NCBI GenBank assembly: GCA_029568995.1
Contig: JAKPYU010000189.1
Coordinates: 1 to 64,000, forward strand
Direction of reading: 5' to 3'
Length of the DNA stretch: 64,000 nt
From: Candidatus Omnitrophota bacterium
GTDB lineage: Bacteria; Hinthialibacterota; Hinthialibacteria; Hinthialibacterales; JAKPRU01
The notes below the pieces were generated by a model. It worked only from the letters and a program-made list of their open reading frames with translations, made no database searches and had not been told where the DNA came from. Every line of letters starts with the position of its first letter. Position 1 is the stretch's first letter. A program made the translations under genes and the position numbers. Positions 11,943-24,523 of the stretch are shown here, in pieces.

Positions 11943-13826
11943 ATGTCTCTCAGAACAATCAAAGCGCCGGAACTGCCCGATGGGCATACATGGTTCAACA
12001 CGGAGCGCCCTCTCCGGTTCGGAGCGGAGTTGAAAGGCCACGTGGTTCTTCTGGATTTCTGGACTTACTGCTGTATCAACTGCATGCACATCTTGCCGGA
12101 ACTGGCGGAATTGGAGCGGGAGTATCGAGACAGACCGTTCGTTGTTATCGGAGTGCACTCGGCGAAATTCGAAAACGAGACTGTACCGGAAAATGTGCGA
12201 ATGGCCATTCTCCGGTATGGAATCGAGCATCCGGTCGTTGTGGATCGGGATTTCATGATCTGGCATTCCTATGCAGTCCGCGCATGGCCTACGCTGGTGC
12301 TGGTAGACCCGGAGGGATATGTCGCTCTGGCGATGTCCGGTGAGGGGCATCTCTCCATGCTGGATGATGCAATCCGCTCCCTGCTGGAGCAGCACCATCA
12401 GAAAGGGACATTGGCCGCTCAGCCTCTCACACTCCGGCGGGAATCGCAGGTCAGTGCCGCGTCGGGACTGTTGTTTCCCGGCAAAATCCTGACGGATATC
12501 GAGAACGGGCGCATCTTCATTGCCGATTCAGGCCATCATCGGATTGTCGTCGCCGATCTGACTGGAACTGTTCTGTTTACCATCGGAAGCGGGAAACAGG
12601 GATTGAAAGATGGTGAATTCTCAGAAGCACAGTTCAATCACCCCCAGGGAATGGCACTTCTGGACTCCATCCTGTATATCGCCGATACCGAGAACCACTG
12701 CCTCCATGCCGCCGATCTTCAACAAAAGGTCCTGACCACGGTCAGCGGAACGGGTGTGAAGGTGTTCGATTTCAAAGGTGGTGGACTCGGAACAAAACAA
12801 CCTCTCAATTCGCCCTGGGATGTCGCAGTCGTCGGAGATGTCCTATATATTGCCATGGCGGGATCGCACCAGATCTGGACTTACGATCCGAAGACGCAGA
12901 TCGCAGAGGCGTTCGCCGGGACCGGTCAAGAGAACATCATTGACGCGCATCGAACCCGTGCAGCGCTGGCTCAACCGTCCGGTCTCTGTGTCCAGGATCG
13001 TTACCTCTATTTTGCGGATTCCGAGGTCAGCGCCATTCGTGCGCTGGACCTTGACCAAGGCACAATCCGTACCCTGGTTGGGAAAGGCTTGTTCGAATTC
13101 GGAGACGTCGATGGCGACCGAAATGCCGCACGGCTCCAGCATCCGCTTGGTGTCGCTGCCTGGAAAGACACTCTGCTTGTGGCAGATACGTACAACCACA
13201 AGATCAAACAAGTAGATCCTCAAGACGGCGGCGCGAAAACTCTGTTTGGCACAGGAAGATCCGGGCTGGGCTTTCCCGGCAAGGAATCGGCTTTCTATGA
13301 ACCCGGCGGCCTGACCGTACTTGGAAATCTTCTATTCGTCGCCGATACGAACAATCATCGGATTGTCCGCGTGGATTTGTCCAACAGGGAATGGAGCGTT
13401 TTTCAATTGAAATGGACCAAGAAGGTCGAGAACAACAGCACTTCCCGCGAACTACTCTCGGAAATTGTTATCGCGCCCGGCCTGGTGGAAATGGAAGTGG
13501 ACATCGTTCTGCCCCCCGACGCGGAATTGACTCCCGACTATCCGATACACCTTCACGTTGAGGGTGGCCCCATTCTGGTCGAGAACGCAGCACGGGATCT
13601 CCGGTTTGATTCTCCCGCACTCCCTCTCCAATGCGAAATCCAGGTGACTGACGCGGCGACAACCGGCACCTTGCTTGTGGACCTGGATTTCGGCTATTGC
13701 CTGAAGAAGAACGGAGTATGCATTCCCTCACAGATGGGATGGATCCTCCCGATTCGACTGCACCCGGATGGGAAGACACACATTCCTCTCACCGCCTCGT
13801 TTATCGATTCCGGCTCCCAGCAGTAG
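11943..13826 (+). CDS. Thioredoxin-NHL repeat protein (NHLRC2-like)
   Basis: 627 aa. Residues 1-150 are a thioredoxin/TlpA-like domain with WTYCCINCMH; the redox pair is C44-I-N-C47, preceded by C43. Residues about 160-480 are an NHL beta-propeller with repeated blades such as GRIFIADSGHHRIVVADLTG, LYIADTENHCLHAAD, LLVADTYNHKIKQVD and LFVADTNNHRIVRVD. A C-terminal beta domain (about 500-627) follows, as in animal and bacterial NHLRC2 proteins. There is no signal peptide, so it is probably cytoplasmic. The biochemical role of this family is not settled. The gene has its own region downstream of a terminator. Confidence 0.9.
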   Translation: MSLRTIKAPELPDGHTWFNTERPLRFGAELKGHVVLLDFWTYCCINCMHILPELAELEREYRDRPFVVIGVHSAKFENETVPENVRMAILRYGIEHPVVVDRDFMIWHSYAVRAWPTLVLVDPEGYVALAMSGEGHLSMLDDAIRSLLEQHHQKGTLAAQPLTLRRESQVSAASGLLFPGKILTDIENGRIFIADSGHHRIVVADLTGTVLFTIGSGKQGLKDGEFSEAQFNHPQGMALLDSILYIADTENHCLHAADLQQKVLTTVSGTGVKVFDFKGGGLGTKQPLNSPWDVAVVGDVLYIAMAGSHQIWTYDPKTQIAEAFAGTGQENIIDAHRTRAALAQPSGLCVQDRYLYFADSEVSAIRALDLDQGTIRTLVGKGLFEFGDVDGDRNAARLQHPLGVAAWKDTLLVADTYNHKIKQVDPQDGGAKTLFGTGRSGLGFPGKESAFYEPGGLTVLGNLLFVADTNNHRIVRVDLSNREWSVFQLKWTKKVENNSTSRELLSEIVIAPGLVEMEVDIVLPPDAELTPDYPIHLHVEGGPILVENAARDLRFDSPALPLQCEIQVTDAATTGTLLVDLDFGYCLKKNGVCIPSQMGWILPIRLHPDGKTHIPLTASFIDSGSQQ

Positions 13827-13881: not shown

Positions 13882-14817
13882 ATGTCCCGGATTTCTCTGC
13901 CCTGTATGGTTCTGTTGTGGGGCTGGACTCTAACCGGATGCAGTGTTGCCGAAAAACAAATCCCCGGCACTCATGCGGCGTCCCTGGATCTGGCCTCCCC
14001 GGTCGCGGTTCTTCCGTTTGTCTGGAATGAGGCGGTCAAACCAAAAGACCGGGAGAGCCTTACGGATCTTCCCCAGCTTGCTCGCTCGATTTTCGCAGAA
14101 TCCTTCGCAACCCTGCCTTATGAGGACATGGACCAGGCGGTCGTTCTCAAGAAAATCCAGGATGCCGAATTTCTGGAGGAGAACCGCTGGCAGGCAATGA
14201 AATCCGGCGATTTGGCGTCCACCATCGGCGCAGGAACACTGGTGGAGGGCGAGATCACGAAGGCTTCTCTGGGCAGAGGCGGCCTCTGGAGCAGCACGGT
14301 TTTCGGCATTCGCATTTCACTCGTTGACGCAAAAACGGAAACTCTGCATTGGCAGGGAACAGCGGAATCCAAACGCTACGGCGGGATTCTGTATCACGCC
14401 GGGCAGGCGACCGAACTCCTTTCCGAACTGTCGAGCAAAGAGGCGCAACGTCGGCAAGTACTGCAAACCATCATCCGGGATGCCGTCCGCAAAATCCTGA
14501 TGACTCTTCCACCGCCTGCAAACCTGGAGATTCTTACACCAGCGATTGAGACCCACCGGGTGGACATTCAACCCGGTCCACCGAAGGAAATCCTCGTTGA
14601 AATACGGGGTACGCCCGATTGTATCGGTACATTCGATATCGGATCGTTCCGGCGATTCATCCCGCTTTGGGAAGTGGAAAGCGGTGTCTATCGGGGCGGC
14701 TATATCGCCCAACCGAACGACTCTGCTGAAAGGCAGGAAGTACGGATTCGTCTGGAATCCCGCCTGGGCGTGGCCACGGTAAAGCAAGTGGAACAGGAGT
14801 CGGTGACACTGCCATGA
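13882..14817 (+). CDS. Exported lipoprotein, first of a paralogous pair
   Basis: 311 aa. The signal ends in the lipobox LTGC (Cys20), so it should be lipid-anchored. The body resembles small envelope lipoproteins with an alpha/beta core: VAVLPFVWNEAV at the start, then AGTLVEGEITKASLGRGGLW and RISLVDAKTETLHWQG. The C-terminal 70 residues (GTPDCIGTFDIGSFRRFIPL, ESGVYRGGYIA) form a separate beta domain that is repeated in the next gene. The stop overlaps the next start by ATGA. I infer a two-subunit envelope complex; GNA1162/LpoB-like folds are a possible comparison but not established. Confidence 0.7.
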   Translation: MSRISLPCMVLLWGWTLTGCSVAEKQIPGTHAASLDLASPVAVLPFVWNEAVKPKDRESLTDLPQLARSIFAESFATLPYEDMDQAVVLKKIQDAEFLEENRWQAMKSGDLASTIGAGTLVEGEITKASLGRGGLWSSTVFGIRISLVDAKTETLHWQGTAESKRYGGILYHAGQATELLSELSSKEAQRRQVLQTIIRDAVRKILMTLPPPANLEILTPAIETHRVDIQPGPPKEILVEIRGTPDCIGTFDIGSFRRFIPLWEVESGVYRGGYIAQPNDSAERQEVRIRLESRLGVATVKQVEQESVTLP

Positions 14818-15812
14818 AGATTCTTATTCGAATCCATTGTGTCCTGTTCGTCGCCTTGATGTGCATTCCGCTGAGTCCCGTTTATGCTTCTGTTTCGAAG
14901 AAAGTGATTGTCGCTCCCAAGGTCGATTTCAGCGGGCCTGTTCGGGTGGCGCTCTTGCCGATGGAGGCGAAGGAGAGTTGGGAAGACGGCTCGCAACATA
15001 CCCGCCGTGCCTTCTATGGCGAGCTGCTGGAAATCCCGGAATTTCGCCTGATGGAACCCGCTGCGGTTGACCGCCTTCTTGAGCAGAAAGGTCTTCTTCA
15101 GGAGAACCGTTGGAGCAAGGAAGATCCGGAGATTCTCGCGGATTTGCTCAATGTGGATTTTCTGATTTATCCCCGCCTGACTGCCTGGACACAGCGGTAT
15201 TTCCTTCTGCAGTCGCAGACCTCCGTTGCTGTCCGCGCATTCATGGTCGATGGACACACCGGCGACCGGGTTTGGGAGGCAGAATCGAAAGCCAAATTCC
15301 AGAAAGGTCTGACCGGGATTCCGACTGGCGGGGCGGCACTGGCCCTGGAGCCTCTGCGCGGCATGAGCAAGCGGTTCTTATATGAATGTGCCTTTGATGC
15401 TGCACATGGACTATGGGAATGCCTTGTGCCGCAGCCATCGGAGGAGCAACAGACAAAAAAATCCGGTGGACAAGTCAACTCGAAATCTTCGCGACAGAAG
15501 AAACAGACGGATGCTCAACCGGAATCGGTGGAATCCGCCTTGGCAATCACCTCTGTGGATGCTGTCTCGGAAGAGAATGTGCTGACTGTAACCCTTGATG
15601 GAACAGCGGACTGTACGGCATCGTTCTTCTCTGGTGATATGAATCGCTTGTTTCCACTCACTGAAATCGCTTCGGGCCGATATCGGGGACAATATCGAAT
15701 CCCTCCGGGAATTGCACTTTCTCCTGCCCAGGTGGAGGTTCGTCTTGTCTGTCCGGACGGCCGTGCCGTGATCGGGCGAGTGGAACAGGCCGACAATGTG
15801 AAATCCCAATAG
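14814..15812 (+). CDS. Exported protein, second of a paralogous pair
   Basis: 332 aa with an ordinary signal peptide (MKILIRIHCVLFVALMCIPL, cleavage likely after VYA). Its opening, VRVALLPMEAKESWEDGSQH, parallels VAVLPFVWNEAVKPKDR in the upstream lipoprotein, and both contain LQENRW/LEENRW. The C-terminal domain GTADCTASFFSGDMNRLFPL followed by SGRYRGQY matches GTPDC, FRRFIPL and SGVYRGGY of the partner. A Ser/Lys/Gln-rich linker separates the two parts (about residues 200-240). The ATGA overlap with the upstream gene indicates translational coupling. The function is unknown. Confidence 0.72.
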   Translation: MKILIRIHCVLFVALMCIPLSPVYASVSKKVIVAPKVDFSGPVRVALLPMEAKESWEDGSQHTRRAFYGELLEIPEFRLMEPAAVDRLLEQKGLLQENRWSKEDPEILADLLNVDFLIYPRLTAWTQRYFLLQSQTSVAVRAFMVDGHTGDRVWEAESKAKFQKGLTGIPTGGAALALEPLRGMSKRFLYECAFDAAHGLWECLVPQPSEEQQTKKSGGQVNSKSSRQKKQTDAQPESVESALAITSVDAVSEENVLTVTLDGTADCTASFFSGDMNRLFPLTEIASGRYRGQYRIPPGIALSPAQVEVRLVCPDGRAVIGRVEQADNVKSQ

Positions 15813-15830
15813 AATGGCTTGTTTCGTTTT

Positions 15831-17963
15831 ATGAATCCCATCGAAAAATACATCGGTTGCCTGGTCGGGCTTGCCATCGGTGATGCGTTCGGGTCGGGCG
15901 CTCCATCTCATGGCTCGGATCAATCCAAGACTCCATCGGATCGTTCCCAGGGCATCCTGCCGGGCGGATTTCTTCTGTATAACTCAGACACACAACGCGC
16001 CTTGCTGTTGGCGGAGTCCCTGACGGAGTGCGAGGAACCCAACCCGGAGGATTTGTGTGCCCGTTTTCTGCGCATGTCGGAAGGTCCGAGACATCTGCCG
16101 CTGGGGAGTTTCCGACGATCGGGGCGGAACTTCCGCATGTCGCTCGACAAACTGAAAGCGGATTGGGCCTGGGATCAGTCGGGGGCGGACTCGCCCGGAA
16201 TTGGCACAGCGGCCCGAATCGCACCCCTGGGATTGATCGCTGAAGATCGGACCGAATTGATCGAGCAGACCATTCGCCTGTCCCTGCCGACCCATCGCGA
16301 TCCGAGAGCAATTGCGGCAGCGGTTGCGATTGCGTTTCTAATCTTTGATGAGATTTGTGGACAGGGGGAACCAGGTGAGACCGGCCCGGCCATGCGACTG
16401 CGGCGAACCGTGGAAACCGTGCTGGAAGCCGAAAACCGCATGGAGCGGGAATATCGCAACCGGATCACGCTGGATTCTTCGCCGTTCCTGCATCAGATGT
16501 CGGAAATGGTAAAGGTTGTGGAGACCTGCCTGGACCTGGATCGGGAGACTGCGCTGGAACAAATCGCAGAGCGGGCATCCGCTCTGTTCGGACATCCGGT
16601 TTCGGCTTCAACGGGATTGTCCCTTGCCGGGGTTTCGTCGGCGATCTGGTTTGCGATGAGCCAGGCATTCGACTTCCAGGCCGCTATCACCGAAATCCTC
16701 CATACGCGAGCCGATGCAGGAAGCATCGGTACAATTGTGGGAGCGATTTGTGGCTGTATTCGCCCCGATACGATTCCTGCCGAGTGGAAGGATCTTCTGA
16801 TCAACGTGGACCAGATTGTCCTTCGCGCAAAAGCACTGGCCGGTCTGGAAATCCCCGGGGACTTGTTGCGCGACTTCCGCCGGTTCGAGCAGACCTGTAC
16901 CGAACAGTTTCACTTTCACCGGAAAACCCACCGAACACCGTTGCGGGCCTATTCGGAGGTGACAGCGGAGGATGATCGGGTTTTCGGTATTCGTGTCATC
17001 TCCGGACGCTCGGGGGATCCTTGCGTTTTCTTCTTTGATGGAAACCTGGATCTATGCGGACTGTTCGATCTGGGACGCACGTTCCCGCTTCGTCCTCCCG
17101 ATATACGCCGCATGGACTACCTGTTTGTCACGCACAGTCATATCGACCATTTCATTGGATTCGATCACATACTTCGCCATTCGCTCAACCGCCCGAACCT
17201 GCTCCATGTTTTCGGCCCGCCGCATATTGCCGCGCAGGTCCAACACCGCTTGCGAAGCTATATCTGGAATCTGCGGCGTTCGCTTCGATTGGATATTCGG
17301 ATTCATGAGATCGACGAGTCAACCATCACCGTCTCGAATATCTCGATGCAGACAGCGTTTGCACACCGCGATGAGGAGGACTCGCATCCGCATCAGGGAG
17401 TCATTTTTGAAACGGAACGATTCTTATTTCGGGCGGCAACTCTGCGCCACGGAATGCCGTGCCTGGGATACGCCATTGAGGAACCGGCCTCTGTCCGAGT
17501 CGATAAAGACCGCCTGGAATCTTCGGGATTGCACCCTGGCCCGTGGTTGAACGTGCTCAAGACAGCTTGGCGTTCCGGTACCCTGGATGAAACCGCGCTG
17601 GATATTCGTGGCAGGGAGTATCCCGCGCGGTCGTTGGCCCAGGACTTACTGGTGGAGCATCCGGGAAGGAAAGTCGCTTATGTGGTGGATACCGCGTATA
17701 CCGATGAAACACGGGTACGCATTGTCGAACTGGCGCGTCATGCCGACCTGTTTCTCTGTGAGGCCGCCTTTTCCCAGCAACTGGATGCGGACCAGGCCAA
17801 ACGCAAATTCCATCTCACCGCGTTTCAAGCCGGAACCCTCGCCAGGGAAGCCGACGTGAAACGTCTGCACATCTTCCATTTCTCCCGCCGCTATCAGACA
17901 AGACCGATGATCCTGATCCGGGAAGCCAAACAAGCCGCCGGGGGAATTGAAGTGACGTATTGA
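15831..17963 (+). CDS. ADP-ribosylglycohydrolase-like / RNase Z-like MBL fusion
   Basis: 710 aa from ATG at 15831 (a TTG four codons upstream is the alternative). Residues 1-340 look like the ADP-ribosylglycohydrolase family (GCLVGLAIGDAFGSG, PGIGTAARIAPLGL). The metal-binding motifs are altered: the usual S/T-D-D-T is N51-S-D53-T, and the usual G-D-x-D-T is A294-D-A-G-S. Residues about 370-710 are a metallo-beta-lactamase of the RNase Z kind: THSHIDH (H435, H437, D439, H440), D620 in VVDTAYT, H661 in KFHLT and H683 in HFSRRY. The MBL zinc ligands are therefore complete while the hydrolase site looks degenerate. The gene is six bases short of being contiguous with the upstream pair. Confidence 0.8.
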   Translation: MNPIEKYIGCLVGLAIGDAFGSGAPSHGSDQSKTPSDRSQGILPGGFLLYNSDTQRALLLAESLTECEEPNPEDLCARFLRMSEGPRHLPLGSFRRSGRNFRMSLDKLKADWAWDQSGADSPGIGTAARIAPLGLIAEDRTELIEQTIRLSLPTHRDPRAIAAAVAIAFLIFDEICGQGEPGETGPAMRLRRTVETVLEAENRMEREYRNRITLDSSPFLHQMSEMVKVVETCLDLDRETALEQIAERASALFGHPVSASTGLSLAGVSSAIWFAMSQAFDFQAAITEILHTRADAGSIGTIVGAICGCIRPDTIPAEWKDLLINVDQIVLRAKALAGLEIPGDLLRDFRRFEQTCTEQFHFHRKTHRTPLRAYSEVTAEDDRVFGIRVISGRSGDPCVFFFDGNLDLCGLFDLGRTFPLRPPDIRRMDYLFVTHSHIDHFIGFDHILRHSLNRPNLLHVFGPPHIAAQVQHRLRSYIWNLRRSLRLDIRIHEIDESTITVSNISMQTAFAHRDEEDSHPHQGVIFETERFLFRAATLRHGMPCLGYAIEEPASVRVDKDRLESSGLHPGPWLNVLKTAWRSGTLDETALDIRGREYPARSLAQDLLVEHPGRKVAYVVDTAYTDETRVRIVELARHADLFLCEAAFSQQLDADQAKRKFHLTAFQAGTLAREADVKRLHIFHFSRRYQTRPMILIREAKQAAGGIEVTY

Positions 17964-22513: not shown

Positions 22514-22589
22514 CTTCTCCACGCCAAATTCCCCTCCAGGCTTGACTTACGAAGCCTCCGTGCCGATAATTTCCGGTACATACGAAAAG

Positions 22590-22846
22590 GCGCCGAAGAG
22601 GAGTAGTAAGCGTCCTTGCGGAAATCGAGAGAGCCGGTGGGTGGTGCAAACCGGTTTTTCGCAGTGCTGAACTCGCCTCTGAGCCGTCCCGGTGAACGGA
22701 GCACTCCTCACTACTAGCCGGGGCCGGGTTCGCCCGTGACAGCGATGAATCAAGGGTGAGATTGCGCATTTGAGGTGTCAATCTCACTGAACCAGGGTGG
22801 TACCGCGGAACATTTTCGCCCCTGAAGCAATTCAGGGGCGTTTTTC
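22590..22846 (+). ncRNA. T-box riboswitch, leucine type, upstream of leuA
   Basis: All main T-box parts are visible. Stem I base is AGAGG/CCTCT (22597-22601 with 22676-22680). The specifier loop has AGTA on the 5' side (22602-22605) and GAACTCG on the 3' side, giving a CTC (Leu) specifier at 22672-22674 followed by a purine. The distal part has AGAGAGCCGGTGGGTGGTGC pairing through CCGGT/ACCGG. Stem III is GTGAGATTG/CAATCTCAC (22756-22787). The T-box sequence AGGGTGGTACCGCG is at 22794-22807, and a terminator follows. Uncharged tRNA-Leu should stabilise the antiterminator and switch on leuA. The CTC reading is my inference from position; the motif itself is direct. Confidence 0.92.
22817..22845 (+). 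terminator. T-box-controlled terminator
   Basis: The perfect 10-bp stem CGCCCCTGAA/TTCAGGGGCG (22817-22826 with 22831-22840), GCAA loop and five Ts lie directly after the T-box motif. It is the alternative to the antiterminator. Confidence 0.92.
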
Positions 22847-22875: not shown

Positions 22876-22995
22876 ATGCCATGTCTTCTTACCGATGACA
22901 GCGACGAGAGCGACCTTGGTGACCTTCCGCTACAGAGACTGAATCCGGCCCTTCGAGGCCACCCATTTCATAAGGAGAACGAACATGTCAGATAG
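22876..22995 (+). CDS. Possible 39-aa leader peptide overlapping leuA
   Basis: After the T-box terminator comes a very strong ribosome site, AAAGGAGGTGG, then ATG at 22876. The frame encodes 39 residues, begins MPCLLTDDSDESDLGDLPLQ, contains seven leucines and stops at TAG 22993-22995, eleven bases inside leuA. The leuA start at 22985 has its own AAGGAG, so translation coupling between the two is possible. There is no homologue to support it and the protein may be incidental. It is too short and too acidic at the N-terminus to assign a function. Confidence 0.4.
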   Translation: MPCLLTDDSDESDLGDLPLQRLNPALRGHPFHKENEHVR

Positions 22996-24523
22996 AATTA
23001 TCATATTCGATACCACGCTGCGGGATGGCGAACAAGCCCCCGGTTTTTCCATGAATCTGCAAGAGAAAATCGAATTGGCCCGACAGCTGCAGCGGCTGAA
23101 AGTGGATGTCATCGAGGCGGGATTCCCGATTTCCTCTCCCGGCGATTTTGAGTCGGTCAAAGCCGTCGCCCAGCAGATCGAAGGCCCTCAGATCTGCGGC
23201 CTGGCGCGCGCCCGAAATGAGGATATCGACTGCTGCTGGGAAGCCGTAAAAGACTCCGCCCGCCCACGTATCCACACATTTATCGCCACCAGCGATGTCC
23301 ATGTCGAAAAGAAACTCCGCAAGACCCGGCAAGAGGTCAAGGAAATCGCCGTTCGCGCGGTCGAACGCGCCAAGAAATACACCGACAATGTGGAGTTCTC
23401 CACCGAGGATGCCGCGAGAACCGATTGGGATTATATTTGTGAGGTGATCGAGGCGGCCATCAACGCCGGGGCAACGACCATCAATGTCCCGGATACCGTG
23501 GGATACTCCAATCCATGGGAGATAGAGAATCTGTTCCGATACATTTTCGAGAATGTACCCAATGTCCGTAAGGCTATCATATCCTGCCATTGCCACAACG
23601 ATTTGGGGCTGGCCGTGGCCAATTCACTGGCCACGGTCCGCGCCGGGGCCAGGCAGGTGGAGTGCACCATCAACGGGATCGGCGAACGGGCCGGAAACGC
23701 CTCGCTGGAAGAGGTCGTGATGAACCTGAAAACCCGCCGCGAATTCTTCGGGTTCGAGACGAGTATCGACACAAGCCAGATTTATCCCGCCAGCCGCATG
23801 TTGACACGGTTCACCGGCGTTTCCGTCCAGCCCAACAAGGCCGTCGTCGGCGCGAATGCCTTTGCGCATGAGGCCGGGATCCACCAGGATGGCGTTCTGA
23901 AAGAGCGCACCACCTATGAGATCATGACCCCCGAATCCGTCGGCTGGACCGGCCAGGGCATGGTGTTGGGCAAACACTCCGGACGTCATGCCTTCAAGGC
24001 TCGCCTGGAGGAACTGGGATTTTGCCTGAACGAGGAGGAACTGGAAAAGGCGTTCGAGGCGTTCAAGGTACTGGCCGATTTGAAAAAGACCGTTTTCGAT
24101 GAGGATCTGATTGTAATCGTCCATCAGCAGGCCCTCTCGGGCGATCTGGATCGGTATATCCTGCACGATTTGATGATCGAGGTCGGCAAAAACGGACCGA
24201 GTGCCACCGTGGTGTTGCGTTCAAACGGTGATACCTTCCAGGAAAGCGGGTCGGGAGATGGTGCTCTGGATGCCGCGTTCTCGGTGATCAAGAAGATGAC
24301 CGGCCTGGAGGAATCCGTTCTCACGAACTACAACTGCTCTTCGGTAACTCAGGGCACGGATGCCATCGCGCAATCGACCATTTCCTTGCGATACAAGCAG
24401 AAAGAAGTCGTCGGGCGCGGGACGGATACCGATGTTGTCCGCGCAAGCGTCAAGGCGTTTGTGGATGCCGTCAATCGCCTGCTCATGACCGAAACCAGGG
24501 AACCGGTAAAGGATATTGTTTGA
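22985..24523 (+). CDS. leuA: 2-isopropylmalate synthase
   Basis: 512 aa, the usual size for the LeuA type with a C-terminal allosteric domain. The TIM barrel (about 1-280) starts with FDTTLRDGEQAPGFSM (Asp9 metal site, Arg13) and has VEFSTEDAART, SCHCHNDLGLAVANSL (HxH metal ligands) and CTINGIGERAGNASLEE. A linker with HEAGIHQDGVLKERTTYEIM and GKHSGRHAF follows, and the regulatory domain is about 380-512. It condenses acetyl-CoA with 2-oxoisovalerate in leucine synthesis, and leucine likely feeds back on the C-terminal domain. Control is by the upstream leucine T-box. Citramalate synthase is the alternative, but the T-box specifier favours LeuA. Confidence 0.92.
   Translation: MSDRIIIFDTTLRDGEQAPGFSMNLQEKIELARQLQRLKVDVIEAGFPISSPGDFESVKAVAQQIEGPQICGLARARNEDIDCCWEAVKDSARPRIHTFIATSDVHVEKKLRKTRQEVKEIAVRAVERAKKYTDNVEFSTEDAARTDWDYICEVIEAAINAGATTINVPDTVGYSNPWEIENLFRYIFENVPNVRKAIISCHCHNDLGLAVANSLATVRAGARQVECTINGIGERAGNASLEEVVMNLKTRREFFGFETSIDTSQIYPASRMLTRFTGVSVQPNKAVVGANAFAHEAGIHQDGVLKERTTYEIMTPESVGWTGQGMVLGKHSGRHAFKARLEELGFCLNEEELEKAFEAFKVLADLKKTVFDEDLIVIVHQQALSGDLDRYILHDLMIEVGKNGPSATVVLRSNGDTFQESGSGDGALDAAFSVIKKMTGLEESVLTNYNCSSVTQGTDAIAQSTISLRYKQKEVVGRGTDTDVVRASVKAFVDAVNRLLMTETREPVKDIV

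Follow-up and report, generated by a model that had tools for sequence, protein, structure and literature searches.

An RNase Z-type nuclease fused to a degenerate ADP-ribosylglycohydrolase-like domain in a genus of Hinthialibacterota

Gene and domain organization of the locus

The analyzed DNA (hereafter referred to as the window) was a 64,000-nucleotide stretch of contig JAKPYU010000189.1 from a bacterium deposited as Candidatus Omnitrophota. A reading frame that is open throughout encodes a 710-aa protein (Table 1), in which an ADP-ribosylglycohydrolase (ARH) domain was recognized in the N-terminal half (119.5 bits against PF03747, above the cut-off of 26.2) and a metallo-beta-lactamase (MBL) domain was assigned by Pfam to the C-terminal half. 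An in-frame TTG is located at 15819, 5' of the ATG at 15831, and the sister species conserve this ATG as the start. In sequence comparisons, the ARH half matched the solved structures of TTHA0831, MJ1187, Tri1, and ARH3, and the MBL half matched the solved RNase Z structures of B. subtilis, human, and E. coli. The original prediction of a fusion between an ARH-like and an RNase Z-like half was borne out by the PF03747 and PRK02126 profiles and by two further species. Identity between the species was 93% in the MBL half, 82% in the ARH half, and 74% in the linker.

Two lipoprotein-like genes upstream of the fusion match each other at about 24–43% identity. The upstream gene order is the same in the three species and the downstream genes differ, which suggests that the two lipoprotein-like genes and the fusion form a three-gene unit, and the GNA1162-like gene is probably co-transcribed with the fusion. 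Genes for putative envelope lipoproteins always precede the nuclease fusion in the three species. In addition, a thioredoxin-NHL-repeat gene (11943–13826, + strand) lies within the conserved gene block in the window and is missing from this position in the two sister species.

Table 1. Positions of the fusion gene, its domains and motifs, and the two upstream genes in the window
Feature	Position	Strand	Remarks
Related lipoprotein-like gene	13882..14817	+	Overlaps GNA1162-like gene; same order in three species
GNA1162-like lipoprotein gene	14814..15812	+	Directly upstream of fusion in all three species
Fusion gene (ARH pseudo-hydrolase + RNase Z-type MBL)	15831..17963	+	710 aa; stop 17961–17963
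ARH domain PF03747, residues 9–316	15855..16778	+	Pfam profile, E=2.9e-34
Lost catalytic Glu (ARH3 E41, 'GAPxE'), P25	15903..15905	+	E in 49/49 reference ARHs
Degenerate metal motif 1, Y50-N-S-D-T-Q55	15978..15995	+	ARH3 YTDDTA; D77 -> S52
Retained T-H155-R-D-P-R-A, ARH pocket histidine	16290..16310	+	H invariant in 49/49 ARHs
Degenerate metal motif 2, R293-A-D295-A-G297-S298	16707..16724	+	ARH3 GGDTDT; D316 -> G297, D314 kept as D295
Linker, residues 341–382	16851..16976	+	Least conserved part across fusion orthologues
RNase Z-type MBL domain (NF002558/PRK02126), residues 383–705	16977..17945	+	NCBIfam, E=1.3e-91
Metal motif H435-x-H437-x-D439-H440	17133..17150	+	Aligned family conservation
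Metal ligand H540	17448..17450	+	Aligned family conservation
Flexible-arm (exosite) GP motif, P569-GPWLNVL-K577	17535..17561	+	Sequence comparison
Metal ligand D620	17688..17690	+	Aligned family conservation
H661 of HxT loop, catalytic His of RNase Z	17811..17813	+	Aligned family conservation
Metal ligand H683 (HFSRRY)	17877..17879	+	Aligned family conservation

The nuclease half

The seven metal ligands, the HxT loop, and the exosite arm of RNase Z were all found in the fusion. Every residue shared by at least 90% of the aligned family members is present in the fusion (H435, H437, D439, H440, H540, D620, E644, H661, H683, G570, W572, and K577). Retention of HxHxDH (residues 435–440) and of the later His/Asp ligands (H540, D620, and H683), which had been predicted, was therefore corroborated, and H661 is to be added to them.

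Against NF002558, the MBL half scored 307.2 bits over 332 of the 345 model positions, below the curated cut-off of 315; a standalone relative (L019) was likewise under this cut-off with 281 bits. By these scores, the MBL half is a clear PRK02126 homologue just below the cut-off. The score against the RNase Z equivalog model TIGR02651 was 133.9 bits, under the cut-off of 292.95. The structural model of this half had pLDDT values mostly above 90, and its best PDB match was the B. subtilis RNase Z-tRNA(Thr) complex (2fk6).

Standalone PRK02126/NF002558 proteins of about 340 aa were found in Nitrospinota, Methylomirabilota, Geobacteraceae, Bradyrhizobium, and others. They are 36–43% identical to the fused MBL and have in common with it all metal ligands and the motifs GPxGIxxxVxGKLxGYTWN and PGPWLxxLK, whereas the fused MBL is placed on a long branch of its own. 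Canonical bacterial RNase Z (B. subtilis Rnz, 1y44/2fk6/4gcw; TIGR02651) shares the fold, the seven ligands, the HxT loop, and the flexible arm, but its N-terminal part is replaced in the fusion protein.

The ADP-ribosylglycohydrolase half

Three positions that were invariant in 48 aligned reference ARHs, E25, D52, and D297, have lost their residues in the fusion; the D52 count is partly circular because some references were retrieved by patterns containing the TDDT motif, and the invariance of the glutamate and of the second aspartate is less affected. The human ARH3 counterparts of these residues are E41, D77, and D316. In metal motif 1, Y50-N51-S52-D53-T54 aligns with Y-T76-D77-D78-T79 of ARH3, so that [ST]DDT with both aspartates is replaced by NSDT in this species and by TSDT in the sisters; N51 is unique to this species, and the sisters carry the usual T. 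In metal motif 2, D295-A-G297-S298 aligns with D314-T-D316-T317, and DAGS takes the place of DxD[ST] with both aspartates in all three species. The glutamate expected after GDAxG is P25 in this species and H in the sister species. The alignment with ARH3 was unambiguous around both metal motifs. Thus, the predicted absence of one aspartate from each metal motif (D77 -> S52 and D316 -> G297) held up under a better alignment, which revealed a further catalytic loss that had been missed, that of the ARH3 E41 counterpart.

The positions T51, N124, M128, and G293 were also altered relative to the 48–49 reference ARHs. D53, T54, H155, D295, R129, and S298 (T or S in the family) were retained, and the fusion matched the ARH family at 21 of 32 highly conserved positions. 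Since the counterparts of E41, D77, and D316 are absent, the ARH half should not hydrolyze its substrates by the ARH di-metal mechanism and would be classed from its sequence as a pseudoenzyme. It shares the ARH fold with the ARH/DraG family (ARH3, DraG, TTHA0831, MJ1187, and the Tri1 immunity protein), from which it differs by these three losses.

Modeling of both domains had been proposed together with the original prediction. The first AF2 run gave a good model for the MBL half only, and a second run, to which ARH relatives from viral contigs were added, gave a good model for the ARH half (pLDDT 83, pTM 0.86). The best PDB matches of the latter were MJ1187 and human ARH3 with TM values of about 0.6–0.8, and the ARH fold is predicted to be intact.

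Conservation and selection within the genus

Only two other genomes of the 193 searched contain the full-length fusion; they belong to this genus, and their proteins are 85 and 87% identical to that of the window. One of these sister genomes (G002) is the same record as locus L126 (JAKPRU010001064), a MAG submitted under the name "Candidatus Omnitrophota bacterium". The three genus genomes are draft MAGs that are 90–94% complete, with contamination of 5–7%. The degenerate ARH motifs, the junction, and the upstream genes were common to the three separate assemblies, and D53, T54, D295, S298, and H155 were unchanged in all three species. Relative to the sisters, dN/dS was about 0.17 in the ARH half and 0.04–0.05 in the MBL half, at dS of about 0.6–0.8. 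Purifying selection acts on both halves, and it is stronger on the nuclease. As the same fusion and losses recur in two further species, the gene is neither a chance nor an assembly join, and with selection on both halves it is neither a chimera nor in decay.

Distribution of the fusion and its relatives

A full-length pattern scan of GTDB contigs revealed no relative of the fusion. Among the 80 best PRK02126-type loci from an MBL-alignment scan of the same contigs, the domain was fused only in the same genus; 79 of the 80 were standalone, and no ARH relative was present in their flanks (up to 6 kb). No relevant MBL was located beside the nearest ARH relatives, although a generic-looking MBL lies about 1 kb away in L228. 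Viral contigs contained no MBL relative and two distant ARHs, none fused, and no plasmid record spanned most of the fusion. An apparent 765-aa fusion of a nitroreductase-like protein and an MBL (L133) was rejected, as its frame was read across a run of N. In the other 11 genomes of the phylum, neither the fusion nor a convincing RNase Z match of either kind was detected; nine of them encode other ARH proteins.

The closest ARH relatives (tree support 97/96) were standalone proteins of 440–460 aa (L217, L218, and L220–L222), which have a Lys/Arg-rich C-terminal tail where the fusion has the nuclease. Metal ligands have been lost repeatedly among L217, L218, L220, L221, and L222 (TDAA, SSNT, TDET, and GETAA), including independent losses in L218 (TDAA) and L221 (SSNT and GETAA); others keep an intact site. 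In trees, both fused halves are now on long branches. With the fusion confined to one genus and its relatives standalone, the distribution looks like a single event that joined members of two scattered families. The search for the same fusion in other genomes had a mixed outcome, which in part tells against the original reading: every genome of the genus examined carries it, with both halves under selection, but beyond the genus the domains occur separately and without linkage.

PADLOC defence models matched neither the fusion nor three of its ARH relatives. In the collection of papers searched, none mentioned ribonuclease Z together with ADP-ribosylglycohydrolase, and none brought the latter together with metallo-beta-lactamase, fusion, and NAD. 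Each domain family is known, but a protein that unites an ARH pseudoenzyme and a nuclease of the RNase Z type does not appear to have been described before.

The fusion as a putative tRNase Z

No RNase Z-like gene other than the fusion was found in any of the three genus genomes. Of 31 tRNA genes sampled from the window's genome, 28 do not encode the CCA end, and the same holds for 16 of 17 from a sister; such genes create a need for 3' trimming to the discriminator, for which a nuclease of this type would be useful. None of 22 genomes with a PRK02126-type gene contained a canonical RNase Z of full length; two entries of this set apparently represent a single genome, and another is the genome of the window itself. 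Among the 193 genomes, none of the 16 with a PRK02126-type gene had a canonical enzyme and 26 others had one; this count alone is not significant (about two would be expected), and the genomes are not independent. The direction of the counts is consistent with PRK02126 standing in for canonical RNase Z, a replacement that may extend over many phyla.

We favour, with a confidence slightly above even, the reading that the protein is an active tRNase Z of the PRK02126 subfamily carrying the N-terminal ARH pseudoenzyme as an accessory module. This reading draws on the complete set of ligands with the HxT histidine, the confident model that best matches an RNase Z-tRNA complex, the position of the gene as sole RNase Z-like gene in three nearly complete genomes, the predominance of tRNA genes lacking CCA, and the lack of co-occurrence with canonical RNase Z in the genomes tested. 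It also draws on the loss of three invariant residues, the selection on both halves, and the predicted ARH fold. Several points weigh against it: scores were below both the PRK02126 and the RNase Z equivalog cut-offs, the canonical enzyme's N-terminal part has been replaced, and the source MAGs carry some contamination. Furthermore, we know of no published activity or experimental characterization of PRK02126 proteins. The phylum also provides a counterexample, as no RNase Z of either type was detected in the order-mate G003 and ten other members; since 13 of 15 tRNA genes lack CCA in G003, whose loci are among L096–L124, the phylum can evidently mature tRNAs without RNase Z, which speaks against an essential role. 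On the whole, the fusion nuclease is probably the tRNA 3'-end processing enzyme of the genus.

In the proposed mechanism, the nuclease half would cut pre-tRNAs after the discriminator base, using a metal-bound water activated by the HxHxDH cluster and H661. By analogy with ELAC2, the dead ARH half may serve as an accessory surface that positions the RNA or a partner, or that responds to a ligand; ADP-ribose or an ADP-ribosylated RNA end is a candidate. ELAC2, the long-form tRNase Z, consists of an inactive N-terminal MBL half and an active C-terminal nuclease. The fusion would follow the same logic of an inactive N-terminal domain before an active nuclease, but where ELAC2 has a second MBL domain as its dead half, the fusion has an unrelated ARH fold. 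If the fusion is the tRNase Z of the genus, it would represent a bacterial counterpart of ELAC2 in which an unrelated dead enzyme has replaced the dead half, and it would point to the poorly studied PRK02126 proteins, which may replace canonical RNase Z in many bacteria. ARH2/ADPRHL1 is likewise an ARH pseudoenzyme with a retained role (PMC7390403), although it is a vertebrate heart protein without a nuclease fusion.

Alternative roles of the two halves

The ARH half might target or gate the nuclease by binding, without cleavage, to ADP-ribose, to a ligand derived from NAD, or to an RNA or protein that is ADP-ribosylated, which we regard as unlikely. The more specific version, an eraser turned into a reader of ADP-ribose on RNA ends or partner proteins that would direct or gate tRNase Z, is modelled on ARH3 variants and is rated somewhat lower still. 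The ARH3 variant D77A is inactive, yet binds ADP-ribose 23-fold more tightly (KD of 0.06 vs. 1.42 uM; PMC8141533), and E41A has been crystallized with ADP-ribosyl ligands (PDB 7akr, 7aks, and 7arw). The counterparts of D77 and E41 are among the residues changed in the fusion, and those of D314, D78, and H182 are kept, a pattern that would suit a reader. The D316 counterpart, a ligand of both metals, is lost, which would not suit one; the affinity of ARH3 for ADP-ribose depends mostly on the second metal, the metal-free protein has a KD of 81 uM, and D314A, which loses the second metal, binds 44-fold more weakly (PMC8141533). N124 is also gone, as is the GG that precedes the DxD motif (RA or RP in the fusion), and the nearest neighbours scanned included no recognizable ADP-ribosyltransferase gene. 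Phosphate ends of RNA that carry ADP-ribose are substrates of ARH-like enzymes, which remove the modification (PMC11833690), making a reader of such ends conceivable; in view of this activity, the earlier remark on how little has been described of links between ADP-ribosylation and RNA now goes too far. If the ARH half does still bind ADP-ribose, it would be a natural eraser-turned-reader on an RNA nuclease and a direct, testable link between ADP-ribosylation and RNA processing, in which NAD-based signalling would be connected to tRNA 3' processing or to the decay of modified RNA.

It is also rather doubtful that the ARH half has become a scaffold for structure or dimerization that binds no ligand and whose old pocket is functionless. 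In favour of a scaffold, the codons of the ARH half change about four times as fast as those of the MBL half, many residues of the catalytic pocket are lost while structural glycines are kept, and pocket decay recurs in standalone relatives (L218 and L221). The five ARH residues that are constant in the three species, however, go beyond what a pure scaffold would need.

A small-molecule phosphodiesterase, acting on a cyclic nucleotide or on ADP-ribose cyclic phosphate in place of tRNA, is an improbable identity for the MBL half. ADP-ribose cyclic phosphate is the product left by tRNA 2'-phosphotransferase. The MBL half weakly matched a cyclic-nucleotide phosphodiesterase model (E 1e-13), and its fold relatives include YhfI and arylsulfatase-type MBLs. 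It nevertheless scored far better with the PRK02126 and RNase Z models, and it keeps the long exosite arm with the GP motif, an arm that is missing from short relatives of the phosphodiesterase type.

Residual hydrolase activity of the ARH half through rearranged metal ligands is very unlikely: the counterparts of D78, D314, and T317 (as Ser) are kept and S52 could conceivably bind a metal weakly, but those of E41, D77, and D316 are all lost, and single alanine changes at D77, D78, D314, or D316 are enough to impair ARH3 (PMC8141533). An assembly chimera or annotation artefact, a concern raised by the draft state of the MAGs, is refuted by the identical fusion, junction, and upstream genes in three assemblies that differ at the level of 85–87% identity.

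T-box leader in the window

A T-box leader (RF00230, 117 bits) was detected at 22584–22826 on the + strand, immediately ahead of a 2-isopropylmalate synthase-like gene (22985–24523). To our knowledge, T-boxes are uncommon outside Bacillota and Actinomycetota.
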